NCBI GenBank assembly: GCA_017889345.1
Contig: JAGHEJ010000041.1
Location: 1-64,000 of the forward strand
Reading direction: 5' to 3'
Source: Clostridiales bacterium
Lineage (GTDB): Bacteria > Bacillota > Clostridia > Clostridiales > Clostridiaceae
Length of the DNA stretch: 64,000 nt
Positions 51,607 through 64,000 of this stretch are shown piece by piece (positions within the stretch are counted from its first letter, which is position 1; every line of letters starts with the position of its first letter). The position numbers and the translations under genes were made by a program. The notes below the pieces were generated by a model. That model did not search any database, was not told the DNA's origin, and saw only the letters and a list, made by a program, of their open reading frames with translations.

Positions 51607-51720
51607 GAGTTTAAATTCCCAAACGATATATATGTCATAACTTAATTTGAAATCTATTCCTGTGAATCATTAAATTTTGAATGTTATGAAAATTGATATA
51701 TATTGTTTTGGAGGTTTAAT

Positions 51721-53094
51721 ATGAATAAAAAAGTTAAATTACTTTCTGGATTATTAATGGCTTCTATTATTTCTAGCTCTTTTGTTGATTTTGATAATTT
51801 TTACTCTGCAAAAGCTTCTAATAAAATTTCTACCACTAGAAACTCTTCTGCTTCAACGAAAAATTCTTCAGAAACATCTGATGAGGAAATCTTAGAAGAA
51901 GATGTTTTAGATGAAGAAATTATAAAAGAAGAAGTAATAGACGAAACTCTTGAAGATGAAATGGTTGATGAAACCATTGAAGATGAAGAATCATCTGGAA
52001 CAACCAATTTATTAGAAATGTTAAACTCTGATGACTCACTTACTATGGAAGATATTTCTAACTTTGCTGCTCCTATTTCTAACTCTCCTGGTTTTATAGA
52101 TGAATTTAAAACAGAATTTCCAGATTTAAGTCCTCTTAGAAAACTTTCTCCTATAGATGGAGGATCTAAAAACTATTTAGATGTTAACTCTGAATCTATT
52201 CAAACACTCCCAATCTTCTTAGATAAACCTACCTCAATACCTTCTATTTACAGTGAACAAAATATGTGTTTTACTTTGTTAAATGAAATTGACTCTGCTT
52301 TAGAAGATATTGAATCACAAATTAGCGAGGAATTACCATCAACAATTTTTTCTTTACAACCAACTATTATAGTTTTTAAAGATACTTACAACATTCTTTA
52401 CGATGAATACTATTCAATTGTTAATAGTAACTCTGAAAACCAAATAACGTTAAATATGCTTTTGAAAGATACTGAAGAAAAATTAACTACTCTTTTAACT
52501 TCCATTAATGATTTCAGAGGACAATTACCAGATCTTATTGATACTTTAAATGATCTTGTATTAGGGTCTTCCTCTAGTAGCGACTCCCAAGATGAAGAAT
52601 TAGTAAGTGATGATGAGTTACTTAATGAAGAATTAACTGATGAAGAAATTGTTGACGAGGAAATTGTTGATGAAGAGTTAACTGATGAGGAAATTATTGA
52701 TGAAGAATTAGTCGAAGAAGAAGTTAGTGACGAGGAAGTTGTTAATGAAGAATTAACTGATGAAGAAATTGATCCTACTCAAGTAATTTTATACTTTGGT
52801 GATTATGGACAAGAACTTGTTTATGACGAAGAAAGTGATTCATTCTTTCAATTAGATCCTGAAAATCCAGATTCTGGAGATTTAGTTGAATACACTGGAG
52901 AAGTTAGTGAAATGACTCTTGCTGAATATTTAGATATTGATGTTTATTTTGATACTAATGGAAATGAATTATTATTTGATGGGGATACAAATAGTTATTT
53001 CATTCTTAACACAGAAACTGGTGAGTTTGAAGTATATGACGGAGAAGTTATTCATATGAAAATGAAAGATGTTCTTGAACAATCTAGTGAATAG
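51721..53094 (+). CDS. Exported acidic protein, first of a tandem paralogous pair
   Basis: Not matched to a named family. The ATG at 51721 follows GGAGGTTTAAT and gives 457 residues. A signal peptide (1-32) is followed by an acidic stretch, a helical core (about 100-280, with IYSEQNMCFTLLNE and STIFSLQPTI) shared with the next gene, and a Glu/Asp repeat (about 290-350, units like EELTDEEIVD). A C-terminal region (about 355-455) has two copies of a 45-50 residue unit (YFGDYGQELVYD..., YFDTNGNELLFD...). It is probably surface-exposed or secreted, and the acidic repeats may bind cations. Function unknown. Confidence 0.8.
   Translation: MNKKVKLLSGLLMASIISSSFVDFDNFYSAKASNKISTTRNSSASTKNSSETSDEEILEEDVLDEEIIKEEVIDETLEDEMVDETIEDEESSGTTNLLEMLNSDDSLTMEDISNFAAPISNSPGFIDEFKTEFPDLSPLRKLSPIDGGSKNYLDVNSESIQTLPIFLDKPTSIPSIYSEQNMCFTLLNEIDSALEDIESQISEELPSTIFSLQPTIIVFKDTYNILYDEYYSIVNSNSENQITLNMLLKDTEEKLTTLLTSINDFRGQLPDLIDTLNDLVLGSSSSSDSQDEELVSDDELLNEELTDEEIVDEEIVDEELTDEEIIDEELVEEEVSDEEVVNEELTDEEIDPTQVILYFGDYGQELVYDEESDSFFQLDPENPDSGDLVEYTGEVSEMTLAEYLDIDVYFDTNGNELLFDGDTNSYFILNTETGEFEVYDGEVIHMKMKDVLEQSSE
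52591..52770 (+). repeat. Acidic Glu/Asp coding repeat
   Basis: Degenerate 15-base and 30-base units encode variations on DEELTDEEIVDEE inside the first paralog. The second paralog lacks this section entirely. Confidence 0.75.
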
Positions 53095-53128
53095 AGAATA
53101 AGTTCTACTTATTCTCTATTTTATTTTT
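53093..53128 (+). terminator. Terminator after the first exported paralog
   Basis: The stem AGAGAATAAGT/ACTTATTCTCT overlaps the stop codon and is followed by ATTTTATTTTT. The second paralog is therefore read separately. Confidence 0.85.
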
Positions 53129-53259
53129 CGAAAATATTTATGTGATTTAAGATTAAAATCCTAAATTTTAATTCGATATATAAAATATAATTTTGATTTA
53201 ATTTAAATTTTAAAAATTTTAATGTTTATAAATCTTGATATATTATTTGGAGGTATATT

Positions 53260-54036
53260 ATGAATAAAAAAGCCAAAATAATTCCCAGCTTATTAATAGT
53301 TTCACTTATTTCTATATCAACTATATATTCTAACTGTGTAAAAGCACGAGTTTCTAGACCAGTTATAGTTAATAACGACTTTAATTCTATTAAAGATAAA
53401 CCAAATAAAAATTCTTCAAACAACACAACTACACCTCTAGAAATATTAAACTCCAATGATTCTTTAACCATAGAAGATATTTCATCTCTTGCTTCTCCTA
53501 TTTCTAATTCTGAAAAATTTATTGAAAAATTTAAAACAGATTTCCCAGAATTAAACGCCTATAGAAAATTATCTCCTATTGATACTAACTATAAAATTTA
53601 TTTAGATATTAATTCTAACTCAATTGAATCAATCCCAAATTTTTCAAATGAATTTAATTCAAATCTTTCTATCTATAGTGAACAAAATATGTGCTTTGCA
53701 TTATTAAACGAAGTTAATTCTTCTCTTAGTGATATAAAATCTAAAATTTCAAAAGAACCTCATTCAACAATTTTCTCATTAATGCCAACTATTATGGTAT
53801 TTGAAGATACCTACAATATTTTATCTCTTGAATATTCCTCAATTATTAAAAACAATTCATCTAATCCCTCATCTTTAAACATAATTCTTAAAGATACTGA
53901 AGAAAATTTATCTATTCTTTTAACTTACATTAATGATTTAAAAAAACAATTACCCGATCTTATTAAAACCCTAAACTCTCCTACTAATAACAACTCCCAT
54001 ACTGAAAAAACTTCTAAAAAACAAAAAAGAGATTAA
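53260..54036 (+). CDS. Exported protein, second of the tandem paralogous pair
   Basis: A 258-residue protein with an N-terminal signal segment (MNKKAKIIPSLLIVSLISIS) and a core about half identical to the preceding gene: LNSNDSLTIEDIS, SPISNSEKFIEKFKTDFPEL, RKLSPID, IYSEQNMCFALLNE and FEDTYNILSLEY. It stops where the first paralog begins its acidic repeat and lacks the C-terminal units. It starts after TTTGGAGGTATATT. Tandem duplication and domain gain or loss is the simple reading. Function unknown. Confidence 0.8.
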   Translation: MNKKAKIIPSLLIVSLISISTIYSNCVKARVSRPVIVNNDFNSIKDKPNKNSSNNTTTPLEILNSNDSLTIEDISSLASPISNSEKFIEKFKTDFPELNAYRKLSPIDTNYKIYLDINSNSIESIPNFSNEFNSNLSIYSEQNMCFALLNEVNSSLSDIKSKISKEPHSTIFSLMPTIMVFEDTYNILSLEYSSIIKNNSSNPSSLNIILKDTEENLSILLTYINDLKKQLPDLIKTLNSPTNNNSHTEKTSKKQKRD

Positions 54037-54082: not shown

Positions 54083-54889
54083 TTAAATTCTTCCTTGGTA
54101 AATATTTAATTTCTTCTGAAAAATATAAGAGGAAATATAAAAGTAAATAAAACTCATAATAATTCTTGAAACAATTAAAAGTCCTACTATAACTCCTAAA
54201 TCTTTAAAACTGTATATTATCAATAAATCCACGGAAAAAGAACTCAATATTAACAACAGGAAGTATAGTAAAGACAATACCCCTTTAAATTTTAAACTCA
54301 TGTTAGATAAACTAATTGCACAATAAGATAATAGAACTAAACTTATTGTACTTAAAATTCCAAAAGTAATAAATACACTTAACACTTCTATAACAAATCT
54401 ATATATTTCCTTAATGTAGATCCATAAATTTAAAGGTACTCCTATATATTGAAAAAATCCCATCAACCAATCTACAATAAATTTTCCTATATATAGAATT
54501 CCCCCAATAATTTTCCAAAAAGGAATAATAATTCCAATAATTAAGATAATTAAACTAAAAAATATAAACATCAATCCCACAAAAAATTTCCAAAATATAA
54601 TCATAGAACTTGAAGCCTCAAATGAATAATTTACATCAATTATATTTTGAAATACGCTTCCATTAAATCTTAAAATCACAAATAATATGGTTAATGCAAC
54701 AACAGATAAAAGCAATACGCTATAAATAATACCTATTGATATGTATAACTTTCCCTCTAATAACTCCCTATAACTTCTATTTTCGTTAAACAATTTAAAT
54801 ATCCATGATAATGCAAAAATTAAAATATATAATGGCAATAATCCTCTTGATAAATTTTTAAATTCATTTTTAATTATTTTGGTAACCAT
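54083..54889 (-). CDS. Multi-pass membrane protein, unknown (ABC-2 permease-like)
   Basis: A 268-residue hydrophobic protein with about six membrane helices. It begins MVTKIIKNEFKNLSRGLLPLY, which resembles the cytosolic lead-in of ABC-2 type permeases. No ATP-binding partner is next to it. The ATG follows AAGGGGATGTAAGA. It sits between two groups of exported proteins, facing the three low-complexity genes on the same strand, and might help export or anchor them. This is a guess from position. Family assignment is weak. Confidence 0.6.
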   Translation of the reverse strand: MVTKIIKNEFKNLSRGLLPLYILIFALSWIFKLFNENRSYRELLEGKLYISIGIIYSVLLLSVVALTILFVILRFNGSVFQNIIDVNYSFEASSSMIIFWKFFVGLMFIFFSLIILIIGIIIPFWKIIGGILYIGKFIVDWLMGFFQYIGVPLNLWIYIKEIYRFVIEVLSVFITFGILSTISLVLLSYCAISLSNMSLKFKGVLSLLYFLLLILSSFSVDLLIIYSFKDLGVIVGLLIVSRIIMSFIYFYISSYIFQKKLNIYQGRI

Positions 54890-55042: not shown

Positions 55043-56212
55043 TTATTCTTCTCCATAAAATTCTTCATATATTTCATACATTAACTCAATTGCTCCAGCA
55101 TAACTTTCGTCACTAATTTCTCCATTTTCATACATAGTATTTAAAATATTCTCATCAATTGCTCCAACTCTTATTCCATAATCATAAAGTATCAACTCTT
55201 CACTAGTTAAATATCCTTCTTGAACTAATCTATGATTTAAAGCTGTTTCTTCATCCATAACCATACTTTCATCAAACTCTACAGCATCTTCTGATAAAAA
55301 CTCCCCTACAACTCCTACTCCATGAGCAACTAGATCTTCATAAACAACATTTTCCTCATCGCTTAAATCATTTGAATTCTCTTCAAAAGATAATTCAAAT
55401 TTTGGTGTAGTAGAATTCCCTGTCTTATTAGTATGATCTTTTAAACTATTTTGTGGTTTTTTATTTTGAGTTTCTTGTTTATTTGATTCTGTTTTATTAG
55501 TTGTATTTTGAGTAGTGTTCTCTCCTTTATTATTTCCATTTGTTTGTGTAGTTTCTCCTGTTGTTGTGTGAATTACTGGTGGCTTAGTTTCATTTGTAAC
55601 ATCTGTGACTTCATCTTGCATCTCAGTATTATCTACTTCTTCATTTAATTCTACAGTCTCTTCTACCTCTTCAGAAATATTTTCAACAACTTCTTCTTCC
55701 TCAACCTCATCTGCTACTCCAAATCCTCCAACTTGTATTCCTTTAGGAGGTGCTGGTGGCTTATTTAATTTTCCACTATTTGTTTTAACACCATTTGATC
55801 TGCTTCCTTGAGATCCTTGATTAACTAAATCCGCATTATTAGCTATTGAAATATCTATTTCTTTTCCTGTTTCTTCTTCTGCTTCTTGTCCAACCCTTAC
55901 ATTATGTTCTGATGAATTCTCTAATTGTTCTCTCATTTTTGCTTGTCTAGCTTCTTCTTCTGCTTGTTTTTTTGCTGCTTCTTCTGCCCTCCACTGCTGG
56001 TCAGCACTTACTGCAGTTTGAGCAATACCTGCTCCAACACTCACAACTGTAGTTACAAGAGTAACAATCAATCCTATCAAAGCATCAGATTCTTTTGGTT
56101 TTTGTCCTCCTACAGTAACAGCTCCAGTTATACTAGCAGCTGTTGCAAGTAACGCTGCTTTCTTTAAAATTTTCTTCCTTGAAGTTTCATTAGTATTATT
56201 TACTCTTTCCAT
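55043..56212 (-). CDS. Exported repeat-family protein, smallest and last of three
   Basis: A 389-residue protein. The N terminus SRKKILKKAALLATAASITG is a signal segment close to that of the two neighbours. A Gly/Val-rich hydrophobic helix (about 43-69) and an Ala/Glu/Gln-rich coiled coil (about 70-105) follow at once. Then comes a long Asn/Thr/Glu linker (about 110-290) and a C-terminal helical pair (about 320-385: LVQEGYLTSEEL, MYENGEISDESY). It lacks the Asp/Gly 15-residue repeats of its neighbours. Function unknown. A surface role is inferred from the export signal and low-complexity linker. Confidence 0.78.
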   Translation of the reverse strand: MERVNNTNETSRKKILKKAALLATAASITGAVTVGGQKPKESDALIGLIVTLVTTVVSVGAGIAQTAVSADQQWRAEEAAKKQAEEEARQAKMREQLENSSEHNVRVGQEAEEETGKEIDISIANNADLVNQGSQGSRSNGVKTNSGKLNKPPAPPKGIQVGGFGVADEVEEEEVVENISEEVEETVELNEEVDNTEMQDEVTDVTNETKPPVIHTTTGETTQTNGNNKGENTTQNTTNKTESNKQETQNKKPQNSLKDHTNKTGNSTTPKFELSFEENSNDLSDEENVVYEDLVAHGVGVVGEFLSEDAVEFDESMVMDEETALNHRLVQEGYLTSEELILYDYGIRVGAIDENILNTMYENGEISDESYAGAIELMYEIYEEFYGEE

Positions 56213-56241
56213 TTTATTTTCCTCCCTGAATTAAACTAATC

Positions 56242-58314
56242 CTAAATTTTTCCACTTTTTTCGTATGTGTCTAAAAGTTCTAATACAACATTTAATTGTT
56301 CCTGTGTTAATTGACCAGCATCTGCCATACTCTTTGCAGTATTTGTATTAATCTTTGAAGAAACTATTAAGTTAACTATCGAATCATATTCTCTAGGAGT
56401 AAATATTCCATCTTCAACACTTTGATGAGAAGAGGCTTTTGTTGCAGCGTCCTCGTATGCAGATTTATCATATGCTTTTGCCCCATAGTTACCACTTTGA
56501 TTTATTGGAGTATCTCCTCCAAAATTACTATCTACATACATTCCTCCATATCCAGCACCACCAGATACTCCTACAACAGAATTAATTGAGCCTGATGGAT
56601 GAAAATTACCATCTGGATCAAAATATCCACTTCCATCATCTAATATTAAGTTTCCATCTTTATCTATTGTTCCAACTCCATCTACATCAATTTCTCCATC
56701 TGGTTTTATTACACCACTACCATCTGGTAAATGTAGATTTCCATTTTGGTCAACCCAACTTCCATCTGGATAAGTTACAATTCCCGTTACAACATTAAGT
56801 TCACTTCCATCTGGAAGAACTATAACCCCTCTATCTGGATCATAAGTTCCACCTAATTGAGCTGCTAATTTTTCATACTCCTCTTTCTGCTGATTTTTCA
56901 TAAGTTCTTCTTGAGCTTTTATAGCATCTTCTTGAAGTTTTTGTTGCATTGATAAAGATTGTTGTCCTTGAAGTATACCAGCTATTGAAGTTCCTAGGAA
57001 TGCAACTGTACTTACAATACCAATAACTCCCACAATTTTTCCAAATTTATCTGATCCACCTTTAGGTGGTGTTGTATTATTTGTTGTATTATTCGTTGTT
57101 GTTGAAGTTATTCTATTATTATTTACAGTGTTATCTCCTTCTAATGAACGTGATGCATGTGTTCCTGATGTTGTCGCTCCTTTTAATGATCCTCTATTAG
57201 AATCTGGTCCATCTGGACCATCTGGATCATTTGTTCCTGGCTTATTTGTATTTGGTTTTCCTGTAGTACCATTTGTTCCTGGTCCATCTGGATCATTTGC
57301 TCCTGATTTATTTCCTTGATTATTATTTGGTTTATTATTATTTGGTTTATTATTATTTCCATTAGAATTTGGCTTACTTGTATTTCCTCCAAGTGTTGGT
57401 TTACCATTATTTGTTCCTGGTCCGTCTGGATCATTTGCTCCAGGCTTGTTTCCTTGATTATTATTTGGTTTATTTGCACTTGTATTTCCTCCAAGTGTTG
57501 GCTTACCACTGCTTGATCCTGAACTTGTTCCACTTGAATTTGGTTTACTTGTACTTGAGTTTCCTCCAAGTGTTGGCTTACCACTGCTTGATCCTGAACT
57601 TGTTCCACTTGAATTTGGTTTACCACCTGTTTGAGTTATTACTGGTTGCTTATTTGAGTTTGATCCTCCACTTGTATTTGGTTTATTTGTTTGAGATGAA
57701 TTATTCATATTAGGCTTACTTGGAGCAGTTGTTCCTGAACCAGATGAAGTATTTGGTTTTGGTGGTGCTGTTGGTTTTCCTCCTCCTCCATTCATACCTT
57801 CAAATTTATTTACTAAATTACCTGTATTTCCTGGCTTTATACCAGTTCCTTCTAAATTTGGCTTATTTGAACCTGTATTTGGTTTAGCTGGAGGTTTAAC
57901 TGCATTATTTGTTGGTGGCTTAGTAGTAGTTGTTGGTGGTTTAACTGTATTACTTGTAGGTGGCTTAGTAGTAGTTGTTGGTGGTTTAACTGTATTACTT
58001 GTAGGTGGTTTTGTTACCGGTGGCTTAACCACACTTGTTGTTGGTGGCTTCACTACAGGTGAAGTTGGTCTATATCCTCCAGTTGATCCTACAAACCCTC
58101 CCCCAGGTCTTAAAGAAGGTGTTGATGGTGGTTTAACTGTTGGAGGCTTCATCATAGCTGAAGTTTTCTTTATCTCTGCTAAACTTGATCCTCCGATACT
58201 TGCAATTCCAACAAAAGCTGTTGCCATTGCCATTTTATTTAAAAACTTTTTTCGTTTTAAAAGCTCTAATTGTTCTTGACTCTTATCATTTTGCTTCTTA
58301 TCATTTGATTTCAT
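56242..58314 (-). CDS. Exported repeat-family protein, largest of three
   Basis: A 690-residue protein. The signal segment KRKKFLNKMAMATAFVGIAS is followed by a Pro/Lys/Thr then Gly/Asn/Ser/Pro low-complexity stalk (about 40-415). Its units include GKPTLGGN, repeated with a 25-residue period, and NDPDGPGTN. Then come a hydrophobic helix (about 421-450), a Gln-rich coiled coil (QQKLQEDAIKAQEELMKNQQ) and about six degenerate 15-residue units (488-572, such as LPDGSGVIKPDG and IDKDGNLILDDGSG). A C-terminal helical pair (GIFTPREY, DAGQLTQEQL) ends it. Architecture matches the next gene. Function unknown, probably a surface or spore-envelope component. Confidence 0.78.
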   Translation of the reverse strand: MKSNDKKQNDKSQEQLELLKRKKFLNKMAMATAFVGIASIGGSSLAEIKKTSAMMKPPTVKPPSTPSLRPGGGFVGSTGGYRPTSPVVKPPTTSVVKPPVTKPPTSNTVKPPTTTTKPPTSNTVKPPTTTTKPPTNNAVKPPAKPNTGSNKPNLEGTGIKPGNTGNLVNKFEGMNGGGGKPTAPPKPNTSSGSGTTAPSKPNMNNSSQTNKPNTSGGSNSNKQPVITQTGGKPNSSGTSSGSSSGKPTLGGNSSTSKPNSSGTSSGSSSGKPTLGGNTSANKPNNNQGNKPGANDPDGPGTNNGKPTLGGNTSKPNSNGNNNKPNNNKPNNNQGNKSGANDPDGPGTNGTTGKPNTNKPGTNDPDGPDGPDSNRGSLKGATTSGTHASRSLEGDNTVNNNRITSTTTNNTTNNTTPPKGGSDKFGKIVGVIGIVSTVAFLGTSIAGILQGQQSLSMQQKLQEDAIKAQEELMKNQQKEEYEKLAAQLGGTYDPDRGVIVLPDGSELNVVTGIVTYPDGSWVDQNGNLHLPDGSGVIKPDGEIDVDGVGTIDKDGNLILDDGSGYFDPDGNFHPSGSINSVVGVSGGAGYGGMYVDSNFGGDTPINQSGNYGAKAYDKSAYEDAATKASSHQSVEDGIFTPREYDSIVNLIVSSKINTNTAKSMADAGQLTQEQLNVVLELLDTYEKSGKI
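57486..57622 (-). repeat. 75-base direct repeat in the stalk-coding region
   Basis: A block of about 62 bases occurs almost identically at 57486-57547 and 57561-57622, period 75 bases (25 codons), coding GKPTLGGN-type stalk. Near-identity at DNA level indicates recent duplication, so copy number may vary between strains. Confidence 0.85.
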
Positions 58315-58364
58315 GTTCTCTTCCCTCCTTGAATAGATATCTCTTCCTTGAAAAATTTTTAAAA

Positions 58365-60158
58365 TTAAAACCCTCCATTAGTTTGGAAATGTTTTAAAAT
58401 TTCAAGAGCAGCATTTGATTGCTCTAAAGTAAGAACTCCCTGCTCGTACATATATTCAATCGTAAAGAAATTAATTTTACCGCCTTCTATATTCTCTTTT
58501 ATCGACTGAAGTTCTCTGTGAGTGAAGACCCCTTCACTAATAAATTTTTCAAATATATCTTGATCTCTAACTAATGTTGCTTCTTCAACTCCTAATTCAA
58601 ATATTTTCTCATTACTTTCTCCTTCTACGTCATCATAGTAAGTTGAATAAGTACTTCTCCTAGTTTCATCAGTATTTTTCTCTATTACAACAGCATCTTC
58701 ATATCGTTCCTCTTCTTCGCTATCTCCAAACTCTCCAGAATTTTCTATAAAGTTTCCATCTTTGTCATAATATCCATCTTCATCAGCTGGATAGAAATTT
58801 CCATCTTTATCGTAATATCCCGTTCCATCTGATAAATGAAAATTACCATTTTTATCTAAATATCCTGTTCCATCTGAATAATAAAAATTCATATCCTTAT
58901 CATAATATCCAGATCCATCAGCTAAGTGGAAATTACCCTCTTTATCAACGTATCCCGATCCATCAATTAATTGGAAATTTCCATCTTCATCATAATACCC
59001 TTGTACAGTATTTCCATTTACTTCACCTTCTTCAATTTGAGAACCACCTTCTTCATAACTACCTTCTCCTGATGAATCTCCTCCTGTCATACCCTGTTGA
59101 GCTGCATACATAGCTTCCTGTGCTTTTAACATTTCTCTATCATGTTCATGCTGCTTTTGTTGCATTTTTTCTTGAGCTGCTATTGATTCTTCTTGAAGTC
59201 TTTGTTGAAGTTCCATACTTTGAGCTGTTTGAACTGCTCCTGCAATACCTGATGCTAAGAATCCTAATCCCATAACGTTTGATGCAATTGCTGATCCTAC
59301 TTGAACCTTATCTGTCTTTTCAGGTTTTAAACTTTGATCAAGATCTGTTTTATTTCCATTTGTTGAGCTAGGTGGCTTATCTGGTGTTGTATCTGTTTTA
59401 TTTCCATTTGTTGAACTAGGTGATTTATCTGGTGTTGTATTTGGTTTATTATTTGTTGAGTTATTCGGTTTATTGTTAGTTGAACTGCTTGGTTTATTAG
59501 TATTTGTGTTATTTCCATTTGGTTTCGATGGAGAATTTGTTGGCTTTGATGGTCCATTTGTTGGTTTCGACGGAGAATTCGTTGGCTTTGACGGTCCATT
59601 TGTTGGTTTCGATGGAGAATTCGTTGGCTTTGATGGTGGTTTTACTGAATTACCTGTTGATGTATTTGGTTTTGATGTGCTTCCATTATTAACAGGTTTC
59701 TTTATTGTATTTCCTGTCTGACTTGATGAAGATGATGAAGATGAACTTCCAGGTTTTTTTATTGTATTTCCCGTTGAACTTGATGGTGGTTTACTTGTAG
59801 ATGATCCTCCACTTGGCTTTGATGTAGTTGATCCTCCTCCTACAGGTTTATTTACATTTGAAGAACTTAAAGAACTACCTCCTGGTTTTGACGAACTTGA
59901 CGCCCCTCCTACAGGTTTATTTGAACTTGATGAACTTGAACTTCCTCCTGGCTTTGATGTTGGTGGCTTTGTTGGCTTCGGTGGTTTTGGTGGTTTTTTT
60001 ATCGGTACTTTAAATTTTGCTTGAGCTTCATACTGAGGTATATCCGCTAAGGTTACACCTGTTATAGTTGCAAGAGTAGTTGCTACCCCTAATGCTTTTA
60101 AAAATTTCTTTCTATGATTTTTTCTATCTTTATTTAAATCATTCGTATCCCTACTCAT
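58365..60158 (-). CDS. Exported repeat-family protein, first of three
   Basis: A 597-residue protein after CAAGGAGGAAATAT. The signal segment HRKKFLKALGVATTLATITG leads to a Lys/Pro then Ser/Gly/Asn/Pro stalk (about 55-280) with a 14-residue unit KPTNSPSKPTNGPS. A Gly/Ala hydrophobic helix (about 286-317) runs straight into a coiled coil rich in Gln/Glu (QQRLQEESIAAQEKMQQK). Six 15-residue repeats of the form GYYDKDGNFHLSDGT follow (387-476). The C terminus has the helical pair SEGVFTHREL and EQGVLTLEQ (about 545-590). Function unknown. It has the clearest repeats of the family. Confidence 0.8.
   Translation of the reverse strand: MSRDTNDLNKDRKNHRKKFLKALGVATTLATITGVTLADIPQYEAQAKFKVPIKKPPKPPKPTKPPTSKPGGSSSSSSSNKPVGGASSSSKPGGSSLSSSNVNKPVGGGSTTSKPSGGSSTSKPPSSSTGNTIKKPGSSSSSSSSSQTGNTIKKPVNNGSTSKPNTSTGNSVKPPSKPTNSPSKPTNGPSKPTNSPSKPTNGPSKPTNSPSKPNGNNTNTNKPSSSTNNKPNNSTNNKPNTTPDKSPSSTNGNKTDTTPDKPPSSTNGNKTDLDQSLKPEKTDKVQVGSAIASNVMGLGFLASGIAGAVQTAQSMELQQRLQEESIAAQEKMQQKQHEHDREMLKAQEAMYAAQQGMTGGDSSGEGSYEEGGSQIEEGEVNGNTVQGYYDEDGNFQLIDGSGYVDKEGNFHLADGSGYYDKDMNFYYSDGTGYLDKNGNFHLSDGTGYYDKDGNFYPADEDGYYDKDGNFIENSGEFGDSEEEERYEDAVVIEKNTDETRRSTYSTYYDDVEGESNEKIFELGVEEATLVRDQDIFEKFISEGVFTHRELQSIKENIEGGKINFFTIEYMYEQGVLTLEQSNAALEILKHFQTNGGF
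58731..59000 (-). repeat. Six tandem 45-base coding repeats
   Basis: Six exact-length units encode G-Y-x-D-x-x-x-N-F-x-x-x-(D/S)-x-x, for example GYLDKNGNFHLSDGT. The first five agree closely and the last is diverged. Regular Asp/Gly turns with alternating aromatic residues suggest a beta structure. Confidence 0.85.
59521..59640 (-). repeat. 42-base tandem repeat in the stalk-coding region
   Basis: Two full units (59521-59562 and 59563-59604) and a partial third encode KPTNGPSKPTNSPS. Units differ at only a few bases, so slippage or recombination can change copy number. Confidence 0.85.
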
Positions 60159-60250
60159 ATATTTCCTCCTTGAAAATTTTTATTTACAAATTCAAATCTC
60201 TATTTTTCTCTTACTTATTTATCGTACGTATGTTAAATTTTTTTACAAAA

Positions 60251-60283
60251 AAAAATGAAAACTTGAAATTCAAGTTTTCATTT
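60251..60283 (-). terminator. Terminator after the M28-like gene
   Basis: A 14-base stem AATGAAAACTTGAA with its complement is followed on the minus strand by a run of nine T. It separates this gene from the exported triplet. Confidence 0.9.
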
Positions 60284-61751
60284 AATCTTTTTTATTTAAA
60301 ATTGAAAAAATTATTCTAAGTAAAATATATATAACAACTAACACACCTAAAGTTATGGATAAATTCTTTATCATTTTATCATTTTTATCCATACTATCTT
60401 CTTCAGTTCCATTTCCTTCTACTAAATAGTCAAATAATAATTTTTTAACTCCTACATTAAATCCACTTTCACTAATATCTTTTCGAGTGCTTTCATAAAT
60501 ATCCGTAAATTCTTCTCTATAAGTATAAGTATCTATCTCATCATTTACAAATACAAATTCTCCGTTAGAATCAAAGTTAAATTCAAACTCATTTATATTT
60601 TTTAAAAATTTAATCTCTTGAGAAGCAGAAACCTCAACCTTATAAGATCCATTTTCTAATTTATCGAAAATTACAATGGAATTTTCATCTGATTTTTTTG
60701 TTTTAATTTTCTTTCCATCTTTGTATAAAGTATAAGTTATCTCTCCAACTTTAGAAATATTTTCCTCAGTTAAAGATGTAATTATCTTTATACTTTTGTC
60801 TTCTCTTACTAAAAATTTATAAATAAGCTCACTTGCATTATTTAAATTTTCAGAAACTCTATCTTCAAAAGTTTCCATAATATCTGCATAATTATTATAC
60901 TTACTTCCATCTATAATTCCCAAACCTTCCCCCGTTGGATCATCAGGTATTTGAAATTCAGATGAAATAGATTCCCATGAAGTTGCTTCCATAAATCCAT
61001 AAGGAACATTACTATATTTAAATGGAACTTGGTCTCCTATATCATATCCAACACCTTCTGGAATTAAAAATTCTTCCATAGCTGGACTCGTAAATAATTT
61101 AATATTATTTTCCTTTGCTATTTCTAACAATTCATCTCTTACAAATCCTTTCGCTCCTTCATTTCCATAAATATACAATTCTTTTCCACTTCCAAGATTT
61201 GTAATATTTAAAAAGCACATTATCTTGTTTAAATCTTCCTGTGATCTTGTAGAAACATAATGAGTCGCTCCAATATTTCCTTGCTTTCCTGCTCCAAATA
61301 AAACAAACTTAACTGTGTAAGGTAACTCTATTTCCTTAATTTTATTTGCAATTTCAAGAAGGAGAGAAACCCCTGTTGCACCTTCAAATCCTGTACTTCC
61401 TTTTACATCTGATGAATCATAAGAGGCTCCAATTAAAATTTCTAAATCACTTTGTCCAGGTTTAGTGGCAATAATATTATGAGATAAAAAATCTCCCTGT
61501 TCAAAATTTAAAATCGTATTATCTGGAAACAATATTTCTTCAAATACGGTATCATATCCCATATCTCTAAAAAGTCTTCCTAAATAATCTGCTGTATAAA
61601 CCTCTCCTTCTGTAAACGCAACTCTCTGTATTCTACAAAGCTGCTCTAAAATCTTCACAGCATCATCTCCAAAAGATGTTGCACTTGTAAAAGATCCTAA
61701 ACAAAATACAAATAGAGAGATAAGAACAAAAAATTTATAAATTCTCTTCAA
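60282..61751 (-). CDS. Exported M28-family protein with all zinc ligands replaced, membrane-anchored
   Basis: The 489 residues comprise a signal peptide (1-24), an M28 aminopeptidase fold (about 25-310), a beta-sandwich-like domain (about 325-390, YTLYKDGKKI, FDKLENGSYKVEV) and a C-terminal membrane helix (about 462-484) with a KKD tail. The M28 frame is easily followed, but the metal and catalytic residues are lost: GASYDS for GAHxDS (near 107), GFEGATGV for the DDN/ASG motif (near 120), GAGKQG for GAEEQG (near 150), NITNLG for NxDMxG (near 183) and GDQVPF for SDHxPF (near 238). It is probably a non-enzymatic binding protein. The start is a TTG after AAGGATGAGAATAG. Confidence 0.8.
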   Translation of the reverse strand: MKRIYKFFVLISLFVFCLGSFTSATSFGDDAVKILEQLCRIQRVAFTEGEVYTADYLGRLFRDMGYDTVFEEILFPDNTILNFEQGDFLSHNIIATKPGQSDLEILIGASYDSSDVKGSTGFEGATGVSLLLEIANKIKEIELPYTVKFVLFGAGKQGNIGATHYVSTRSQEDLNKIMCFLNITNLGSGKELYIYGNEGAKGFVRDELLEIAKENNIKLFTSPAMEEFLIPEGVGYDIGDQVPFKYSNVPYGFMEATSWESISSEFQIPDDPTGEGLGIIDGSKYNNYADIMETFEDRVSENLNNASELIYKFLVREDKSIKIITSLTEENISKVGEITYTLYKDGKKIKTKKSDENSIVIFDKLENGSYKVEVSASQEIKFLKNINEFEFNFDSNGEFVFVNDEIDTYTYREEFTDIYESTRKDISESGFNVGVKKLLFDYLVEGNGTEEDSMDKNDKMIKNLSITLGVLVVIYILLRIIFSILNKKD

Positions 61752-61883
61752 CTATTCTCATCCTTCCCAATTTCTAATTACATTCAACAACTTTTAAAAT
61801 TTATTTACTCTTTGTTATTTTGAAACTTTTAGTTAATATTATACTTTATATTTTAAAATTTAGTAAATAATTTTAAATAAAAA

Positions 61884-61917
61884 TAAAGGTAGTTAATTCC
61901 TCTTAACTACCTTTTTG
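61884..61917 (-). terminator. Terminator after pepF
   Basis: A 12-base stem AAAGGTAGTTAA/TTAACTACCTTT is followed on the minus strand by ATTTTTATTT. Confidence 0.88.
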
Positions 61918-61924
61918 AAAATTT

Positions 61925-63718
61925 CTATATATTCTTCTCCAAAATATTTAAAAGCTCTGAAAATCTATCCATTACTTTTTGCATTGGAGCTTTTGTTGTC
62001 ATATCAACTTTTGCTGATTTTAAAATTTCTATTGGATAATTTGATCCTCCCATTTTTAGGAAATTATTTATATAATTTTCAACAGCTCTTTCTCCATTTT
62101 TCAAAATATCTTGAGAAAATGCAAAACTTGCAGCGTATCCAGTTGCATATTGATAAACATAATAAGCTGAATAAAAATGCGGTATTCTGCTCCACTCGTA
62201 AATTATATAATCATCTAAAATTAAACTCTTTCCATAATATTTTTCATTTAAATCTTTCCAAATTGAAGAAAAACTATCGCTTGTTAAAGCTTCTCCTCTT
62301 TCAACCATTTCATGAGTTATAAGTTCAAACTCTGCAAATAAAAGTTGTCTAAACACTGTTGTTCTAATATTTTCTATCTCTTTATTTATAAAATATAATT
62401 TCTCTTTTCCTTCTGTTGTATCTTGCATGTATTTATTTAATAAATGCTCATTACATGTTGATGCAATTTCTGCTAAGAAAATTGGATAATTTGAATTAAA
62501 GAAAGTTTGATTCTTTCTTGAATAATAAGAATGTATTGAATGTCCCATTTCATGAACAAGAGTTGATACATCATTAAATGTGTTTGAATAATTTAAAAGA
62601 ATATATGGATCTGTATCATAACACCCAGAAGAATACGCTCCACTTCTTTTTCCCTTATTTATATAAACATCTATCCATCTATTTTCAACTGCTTCCTTAA
62701 ATATATTTAAGTATTCTTCCCCAAGAGGAGCTAATGCTTTAAAGGAAATTTCTAAAGCTTTTTCATAGGGAATATCTTTAACTAGATTTTCAAACAATGG
62801 AACATATAAATCATAACTTCTTAACTCATCAACATTTAATAGTTTCTTTTTTAAATCTATATATTTATGAATTTTATCAAAGTTTTCATGTACAACCTCG
62901 ATTGCATTTAAATAAACAGATTTATCTATATTATTTCCAAATAAATTTCCTTCTAATGTTGAATTAAATTTCTTCGCTTTTGCATATAAAACATCATTTG
63001 TAATTGAAGTTGATAAACATGTAGCTAATGTGTTTTTATAACTTTTATATGTTTCATAAAATTTCTCGTAAGCTTCTTTTCTTACTTCCCTATCTTTTGA
63101 AGAAATAAATGCAACGTAATTTCCTTCGTTTAATCTAACCTCTTCTCCTTTTTCGTTTTTTGTGTTAGGAAATTCCATATCAACATTTTTAAATATTCCA
63201 GCAATATTTGATGGAGCATCCATTGAAGAACCAAACATACTTAAAATCTTTTCTGCTTCTTCTGATAAAATGTGCTCCTTACTTCTTATAAGTCCTTTTA
63301 TTTTAAATCTTACATCTTTAAGAGATTCATTTTCTAAAAGAGATTTTAAATAACTTTCATCTTGTGATATTAATTCTGTATCTATAAAACTACTTTCAGC
63401 TGAAAAAGCATAATAAAATTGCTCAACTCTTGACATTAATCCTTGATATAAAGTAACAGATCCATCTTGATCTTTTTTCATATGGGCATAATTTATAAGT
63501 TTTGTAAGAATTCTATATGCCTTCTCTAAGTCTTTAAATAAATTAACTACTTGTTTCTCATCTGAAAGCTTTCCTTTATAATTTCCTATATTTTTTGAAA
63601 ACTCTTTTACATATTCAAAATCTTTTTCAAACTCTTCAATATTTTTATAAATCTTCTCTAAGTTCCACGTATACTTTTCTTCAATATCCTTTCTATCTTC
63701 AAAATATTTTATATCCAT
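61925..63718 (-). CDS. pepF: Oligoendopeptidase F
   Basis: A zinc metallopeptidase of family M3B that cuts cytosolic oligopeptides. The 597 residues have the catalytic VHEMGHSIH (HExxH) near residue 385 and the third ligand region in FLAEIASTCNEHLL near 413. The conserved C-terminal YQYATGYAASFAFSQ near 525 is also present. The start follows TAGGAGGATAAAT. It follows a second pepF-like gene by 12 bases. Peptide use fits an organism that depends on amino-acid uptake. Confidence 0.96.
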   Translation of the reverse strand: MDIKYFEDRKDIEEKYTWNLEKIYKNIEEFEKDFEYVKEFSKNIGNYKGKLSDEKQVVNLFKDLEKAYRILTKLINYAHMKKDQDGSVTLYQGLMSRVEQFYYAFSAESSFIDTELISQDESYLKSLLENESLKDVRFKIKGLIRSKEHILSEEAEKILSMFGSSMDAPSNIAGIFKNVDMEFPNTKNEKGEEVRLNEGNYVAFISSKDREVRKEAYEKFYETYKSYKNTLATCLSTSITNDVLYAKAKKFNSTLEGNLFGNNIDKSVYLNAIEVVHENFDKIHKYIDLKKKLLNVDELRSYDLYVPLFENLVKDIPYEKALEISFKALAPLGEEYLNIFKEAVENRWIDVYINKGKRSGAYSSGCYDTDPYILLNYSNTFNDVSTLVHEMGHSIHSYYSRKNQTFFNSNYPIFLAEIASTCNEHLLNKYMQDTTEGKEKLYFINKEIENIRTTVFRQLLFAEFELITHEMVERGEALTSDSFSSIWKDLNEKYYGKSLILDDYIIYEWSRIPHFYSAYYVYQYATGYAASFAFSQDILKNGERAVENYINNFLKMGGSNYPIEILKSAKVDMTTKAPMQKVMDRFSELLNILEKNI

Positions 63719-63730
63719 AAATTTATCCTC

Positions 63731-64000
63731 CTAATTTTCACAAACTAAACTTTTATATTTTTCAAATTTATCCTTAAGAATTTCTATAGAATTTTTGAAA
63801 AACTCCTTCTTAGTTATATCAATTCCACACATATTACACAAATCTTTTAAATTATTCTTTCCAGAATTTTTCAAAATCATATTATATTTTGGAATAAACT
63901 CCTCTTTATTATTTAAATAAAATTTATAAAGTCCCAAAGAAAATAAATGTCCAAAGGTGTAAGGGAAATTATAAAAATTATTGTAAAAATCATAATAATG
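63731..64000 (-). CDS. Second oligoendopeptidase F-like gene, C-terminal part (cut by window edge)
   Basis: The frame is open to the end of the window. Reading in from 64000 it gives YNFPYTFGHLFSLGLYKFYL, the conserved C-terminal segment of M3B oligoendopeptidases, then a tail ending EKYKSLVCEN. About 89 residues are visible and the catalytic HExxH lies outside. The apparent start within the window is only an internal TTG. It lies 12 bases upstream of pepF, so two M3B peptidases are in tandem. Confidence 0.85.
   Translation of the reverse strand, partial: HYYDFYNNFYNFPYTFGHLFSLGLYKFYLNNKEEFIPKYNMILKNSGKNNLKDLCNMCGIDITKKEFFKNSIEILKDKFEKYKSLVCEN

Follow-up and report, generated by a model that had tools for sequence, protein, structure and literature searches.

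A membrane-anchored M28 peptidase homologue with an overwritten catalytic site in segmented filamentous bacteria

Background

Homologues of M28 peptidases without peptidase function are already known as a kind. When PMC4000134 appeared, MEROPS listed more than 550 of them, with the transferrin receptors as characterised examples, and these receptors and other non-peptidase members act through protein-protein contacts (PMC4000134). Transferrin receptor 1 (M28B) presents an M28 fold without peptidase function at the cell surface, and its protein-binding role (PMC4000134) is the one proposed below for the protein described here, pM28. Unlike pM28, the receptor is an animal protein of type II membrane topology and carries helical and PA domains. 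Nicastrin likewise carries an inactive M28-like ectodomain on a C-terminal membrane helix, as does pM28, but belongs to gamma-secretase. CA_C2195 of Clostridium acetobutylicum (DUF4910) resembles pM28 as an M28-like protein from a clostridium in which catalytic residues are gone (PMC4000134), but it has a winged helix and a DUF2172 insert and still holds one zinc.

Two active enzymes are closer to pM28. AaaA, a surface aminopeptidase of Pseudomonas aeruginosa (PDB 9oqa), is the nearest solved structure both by sequence (E=2e-18) and by fold (Z 37.2); unlike pM28 it has intact metal-site motifs in the alignment and is a Gram-negative autotransporter. The intact long M28 aminopeptidase of segmented filamentous bacteria (SFB; L002 in the genome studied here, L025 and L027 in relatives) has the same succession of signal peptide, M28 domain, SpaA-like beta domain and hydrophobic C-terminus, and forms the sister clade of pM28 with 31-33% identity over 400 residues. 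It differs in having a complete set of metal and catalytic residues, a weakly hydrophobic C-terminal tail and a different location in the genome. We found no paper in the literature that names or describes pM28, which is a new, SFB-specific subfamily of unusual architecture.

The window, that is, the whole stretch of 64,000 nucleotides analysed here, comes from an SFB ('Candidatus Arthromitus'/Savagella), one of a group of gut commensals that attach to the wall of the intestine. Its genome of 1.66 Mb is in line with published SFB genomes (PMC13153320), and the G+C content of the window, 27.7%, is lower than the 30.6% reported for a Malian human SFB species (PMC13153320). Three SFB genomes were compared: that of the window's own species, the turkey SFB (G070, 'Candidatus Arthromitus sp. 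SFB-turkey isolate UMNCA01') and a genome in a single contig of 1,515,556 bases (G041), presumably that of the rat SFB. By pM28 identity the window species is closer to the turkey SFB (67%) than to the single-contig genome (60%).

Gene and protein architecture

The gene and the segments of its product are as follows (window coordinates).

60282..61751, minus strand: pM28 gene, encoding an exported, C-terminally anchored M28 pseudo-peptidase of 489 aa; TTG start kept in all three SFB species
61680..61751, minus strand: signal peptide ending near residue 24, in a hydrophobic stretch that spans residues 1-27, from hydropathy, with the cleavage point estimated from sequence
60804..61670, minus strand: M28 fold, residues 28-316, from Pfam PF04389, an AF2 model (pLDDT mostly above 80-90) and VIA-align Z scores of 29-37 to solved M28 enzymes
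60537..60797, minus strand: SpaA/prealbumin-like beta domain, residues 319-405, from sub-threshold Pfam SpaA and SdrD_B matches and strands in the AF2 model
60495..60611, minus strand: late beta strands and start of the juxtamembrane stretch, residues 381-419, where constraint has been gained in pM28
60306..60377, minus strand: C-terminal transmembrane anchor, residues about 459-482, with a basic tail, from hydropathy

The open reading frame is genuine. Stops throughout rule out a plus-strand reading of the same interval, a ribosome-binding-like GGAAGG precedes the start, and both relatives begin at the same TTG. Hydropathy upholds the signal peptide and C-terminal anchor of the original prediction, with hydrophobic segments at residues 1-27 and 459-488, the latter a transmembrane segment. 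The extra beta domain fared less evenly: residues 319-405 are modelled with high confidence, but curated Pfam cut-offs are reached neither by SpaA (20.1 bits against 23.1) nor by SdrD_B (22.4 against 29.7), and the strands match a SpaA/Cna-B-like prealbumin domain in topology only. A linker of low confidence in the AF2 model separates this domain from the transmembrane helix.

Membership of the M28 fold family (PF04389), which includes non-peptidase homologues, is clear from profile score and fold comparison (Z 29-37). Pfam Peptidase_M28 matches residues 92-257 with E=3.5e-13 and clears its curated cut-off, at 50-57 bits in the dead proteins against 97-114 in the intact SFB paralogues. Compared by VIA-align with solved M28 structures, the predicted model of pM28 scores Z 37.2 with AaaA, 30.4 with the Streptomyces griseus aminopeptidase and 29.1 with the A. 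proteolytica aminopeptidase. It thereby matches as well as the model of the intact paralogue does (37.2 with AaaA, 30.8 with the S. griseus enzyme). Since the alignment supplied to AF2 included active M28 enzymes, these scores show compatibility with the fold and do not constitute an independent discovery of it. Transferrin receptor 1 (3kas) is matched with Z 28.8, but pM28 does not have the M28B architecture: its M28 domain is followed directly by the beta domain, with neither a helical dimerisation domain nor a PA insert. Pfam Nicastrin gave weak matches to the active SFB paralogues and not to pM28.

Loss of the metal site

An active M28 peptidase has five metal ligands (His, Asp, Glu, Asp, His) and a general-base Glu that precedes the ligand Glu. 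The residues that stand at these positions in pM28 are encoded as follows, with the states in the window species, the turkey SFB and the single-contig SFB in brackets.

61422..61424, minus strand: S110, in place of the first metal His (S/A/S)
61383..61385, minus strand: E123, in place of the bridging metal Asp (E/E/E)
61284..61289, minus strand: G155-K156, in place of the catalytic and ligand glutamates (Gly-Lys throughout)
61200..61202, minus strand: T184, in place of the second metal Asp (T/S/T)
61029..61031, minus strand: Q241, in place of the last metal His in the window species only (Q/H/H)

None of the five ligands (S110, E123, K156, T184, Q241) is identical to that of an active enzyme, and all three orthologues have G155 where the general base would stand. 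When about 37 M28 relatives were aligned, essentially all members outside this group had the first metal His, the bridging Asp, the catalytic and ligand glutamates and the second Asp; the exceptions are one truncated frame and the partly degraded clostridial homologue L023. The last-His column holds His, Tyr, Ser or Cys in other relatives and is therefore the least diagnostic of the six positions. The claim that every metal and catalytic residue has changed is thus fully true of the window species only, as the turkey and single-contig SFB keep the last His, while the change at the other five positions extends to all three orthologues. The replacement of Asp by Glu is conservative, so that E123 by itself is no proof of metal loss.

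The loss is targeted. Among columns conserved in at least 85% of relatives, all five catalytic ones have changed in the three orthologues, compared with 8 of 27 others (hypergeometric p ~0.006). The remaining 19 family-wide conserved positions are retained in all three, which indicates that the domain is otherwise conserved. The original observation is confirmed, for a gene on the minus strand. The predicted model and the sequence alignments place the changed residues at the ligand positions, as originally predicted. The refuting case of intact ligands elsewhere was not seen, in that the aligned site of the three orthologues holds no other set of invariant His, Asp, Glu or Cys residues that could act as substitute ligands. 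pM28 probably binds no co-catalytic zinc, and K156, possibly paired with E123, would occupy the former metal site. There is good support for describing pM28 as an M28 homologue that is exported and anchored but has no catalytic site.

Duplication and selection

Three M28 genes are present in every SFB genome examined: pM28, an intact paralogue that shares its architecture, and a further intact gene, which is short. pM28 orthologues lie at the same locus in all three genomes. In a maximum-likelihood tree the dead clade is sister to the clade of the intact long SFB proteins with a support of 96/94, and the dead form is a duplicate of that paralogue. The stem of the dead clade is long (1.03, against 0.49 for the intact clade), whereas tip branches are similar (0.17-0.20 and 0.15-0.22), as are the identities among orthologues (60-67% for the dead form, 59-68% for the intact one). 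We interpret this burst after duplication, followed by ordinary constraint, as resembling the gain of a new role; it speaks against decay. In accordance with purifying selection, the frame is intact, the alignment of the three orthologues is nearly free of gaps, and the NG86 estimate of dN/dS is about 0.31, with dS close to saturation. pM28 is thus a non-peptidase M28 homologue in the sense that it retains the fold without the catalytic residues and is under selection.

The distribution of constraint differs between the two duplicates, although tests of constraint rest on three species and are weak for that reason, again with dS near saturation. Columns within 3 residues of the ligand positions are invariant in 97% of cases among the orthologues of the intact paralogue, but in 69% among the dead ones. 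Residues 381-419 show the reverse: 69% of these positions are invariant among the dead proteins, compared with 31% among the intact ones (p=0.0014, an optimistic value because the region was picked after inspection of the block profile). The C-terminal helix is strongly hydrophobic in the dead group only, with Kyte-Doolittle values of 2.6-3.2 compared with 1.2-1.3 in the intact group, so that pM28 has the stronger anchor. We read this as a move of constraint from the chemistry of the cleft to contacts near the membrane, in the late beta domain and juxtamembrane stretch. Conservation is also raised within 8 residues of the dead site (71%, against 51% in the rest of the domain; p=0.0025), which counts against this reading, as the old cleft could still be the functional part of the protein.

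Close relatives outside SFB were absent from searches of the family, the order (225 genomes) and the class (391 genomes). Scanning the contigs of genomes with a single sequence returned no relative, while a scan with the alignment of the three orthologues did find one. As to dead relatives of the same type outside the genus, the other relatives retrieved keep the catalytic residues, except for L023, which is partly degraded. In this protein (from G093) the bridging Asp and the catalytic Glu have become Gly and the last His has become Ser, but the first His, the ligand Glu and the second Asp are retained, and its loss is independent of that in pM28.

Genomic context

The elements that surround the gene are these.

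61925..63718, minus strand: PepF-type M3B oligopeptidase gene, the upstream neighbour; order shared by all three SFB
61885..61914, minus strand: intrinsic terminator 3' of the oligopeptidase gene, recognisable in the turkey and single-contig SFB
61838..61867, minus strand: promoter TTTACT-18-TATAAT within a block of about 55 bp that is nearly identical in the three species
60253..60283, minus strand: intrinsic terminator 3' of pM28, recognisable in the turkey and single-contig SFB
58365..60158, minus strand: exported protein 1, rich in Pro/Ser/Gly, with DGSGYYDKDGNF repeats and a conserved C-terminal domain
56242..58314, minus strand: exported protein 2
55043..56212, minus strand: exported protein 3

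The order PepF, pM28 and exported proteins 1, 2 and 3 is identical in the window and the single-contig genome. The turkey SFB follows the same order up to its contig ends, with PepF, pM28 and the start of exported protein 1 on contig C17 and the exported C-termini on C3. The suggestion that the exported triplet could be the partner of pM28 is weakened by these data: adjacency is conserved, but pM28 has a promoter of its own and conserved terminators on both sides, which place it outside the transcription unit of the triplet and rule out co-transcription. From its signals, pM28 is most likely transcribed on its own.

The core of the promoter block does not occur a second time in the three SFB genomes. 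A partly palindromic block, TTAACTAAAAGTTTTAAAATAA (window 61796-61847, minus strand), lies 3' of the pM28 -10 box and is nearly identical in the three species. Its core likewise has no other site in the three SFB genomes, and the block is a possible candidate operator. Past the pM28 terminator and upstream of exported protein 1, window 60159-60240 (minus strand) holds a TTACGATA-type motif that is conserved in the three SFB species and reads TACGATA in the window; it may be a promoter element for a non-housekeeping sigma factor.

The triplet (55043-60158) encodes proteins of 389-690 aa that share a domain of about 60 residues at the C-terminus and have low-complexity middles rich in Pro/Ser/Gly/Asn. 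By sequence, this domain was found in these genes only within each SFB genome. No Pfam family matched the triplet above threshold, and a DUF4214 surface domain was rejected for want of a Pfam match. The idea that one of the triplet proteins is the Th17 antigen P3340 was not supported. The epitope of that antigen, QFSGAVPNKT, back-translated, is absent from the three genomes at up to 2 mismatches, and the reported mass of 113.7 kDa (PMC12780176) exceeds the size of the triplet proteins; an orthologue with a diverged epitope may lie elsewhere in the genome.

Further differences in gene content occur nearby. Two adjacent related exported proteins of 463 and 258 aa (window 51703-54036, the second being the shorter) correspond to a single one in the single-contig SFB (L036:6575-8035), as if a gene had been duplicated in tandem and shortened. 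Following the triplet, at 54083-54889, is a gene for a membrane protein that has no counterpart at that place in the single-contig SFB. On the other side, two PepF-type oligopeptidases stand in tandem (window 61925-64000 and beyond, L038). The turkey and single-contig SFB have an alpha/beta hydrolase-like gene between the pair, which the window species lacks.

Possible functions

An active site that has been overwritten in a protein that is nevertheless intact and conserved in three species probably indicates a binding or scaffold role and not an enzyme. We accordingly regard pM28 as a dead, surface-held M28 protein that works by binding, with a probability of roughly 70%, and infer that what it binds is protein or peptide. 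To see it as a receptor or adaptor, as originally suggested, is reasonable. Under this reading, pM28 would have arisen by duplication of a secreted SFB M28 aminopeptidase of the same architecture; its signal peptide would direct export, and the C-terminal helix would hold the protein to the membrane from the outside. There the M28 domain, folded but zinc-less, would form a non-catalytic binding module together with the SpaA-like beta domain. The partner would be a conserved SFB envelope protein, touched through the late beta-domain and juxtamembrane stretch. pM28 changes at the pace of its paralogue, unlike its exported neighbours, which diverge faster (44-58% identity), and this argues for a conserved partner. 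A conserved envelope component is thus the most likely partner and is favoured over a fast-diverging host receptor, a choice much less certain than the general claim of binding.

More specific forms of binding must be weighed against this. The partner could be the intact M28 aminopeptidase itself, which pM28 would pair with, position or regulate, for example as a membrane tether. The two proteins are sister duplicates with a common signal peptide, M28 domain and beta domain in every SFB genome, and the strong membrane anchor of the dead form is set against a weak hydrophobic tail on the active one; their genes are unlinked, however (contigs C100 and C87), and pM28 does not have the helical dimerisation domain of the M28B receptors, so we consider this special case unlikely, if well worth keeping in mind. 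A host-facing adhesin or receptor for epithelial attachment appears less probable again. Such a role would suit an exported and anchored protein in bacteria that have no sortase and whose attachment components are unidentified (PMC7474095; PMC12780176), and the transferrin receptor shows that a dead M28 fold can serve as a binding surface. Yet pM28 evolves at an ordinary pace (60-67% identity) and not faster, as SFB extracellular hypothetical proteins are reported to do (mean 52%; PMC7474095), and it is tethered to the membrane beneath a thick wall instead of being displayed on the wall.

Still more doubtful is a receptor whose zinc-less cleft captures peptides and delivers them for oligopeptide uptake by a bacterium that is auxotrophic for amino acids. 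SFB depend on imported peptides (PMC9482736), PepF-type oligopeptidases always adjoin pM28 and conservation is moderately raised around the old cleft; but the Asp and Glu that hold the free amino end of the substrate are also gone (T184, G155), and the transcription unit is separate. Residual or altered enzyme activity at a non-canonical site seems very improbable: E123 and D112 are still there and the last His is kept in two species, but both glutamates, the second Asp and the first His are lost in all three orthologues, and no conserved substitutes stand at the aligned site. That pM28 is a functionless gene in decay is hardly credible, for although its catalytic residues are lost, its promoter and terminators, like its frame, are conserved in three species. 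We therefore retain non-catalytic binding as the preferred reading.

Implications

Intimate attachment by SFB drives Th17 and IgA maturation, but these bacteria are barely culturable, and their surface make-up and adhesins are largely unknown (PMC7474095, PMC12780176). pM28, intact in all three SFB genomes despite its dead site, offers a defined candidate, amenable to expression, for a protein with a structural or binding function, and the same genome supplies a built-in control in its intact sister enzyme. The organism and this paired control are the main reasons for interest in it. More tentatively, and with considerable doubt, the subfamily might represent a duplicated surface aminopeptidase that became fixed in SFB as a membrane-tethered, zinc-free envelope scaffold or receptor, possibly within the machinery for building the surface or attaching to the gut epithelium. 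Together, pM28 and its paralogue provide a bacterial duplicate pair in which the change from an M28 enzyme to a binding protein may be studied.
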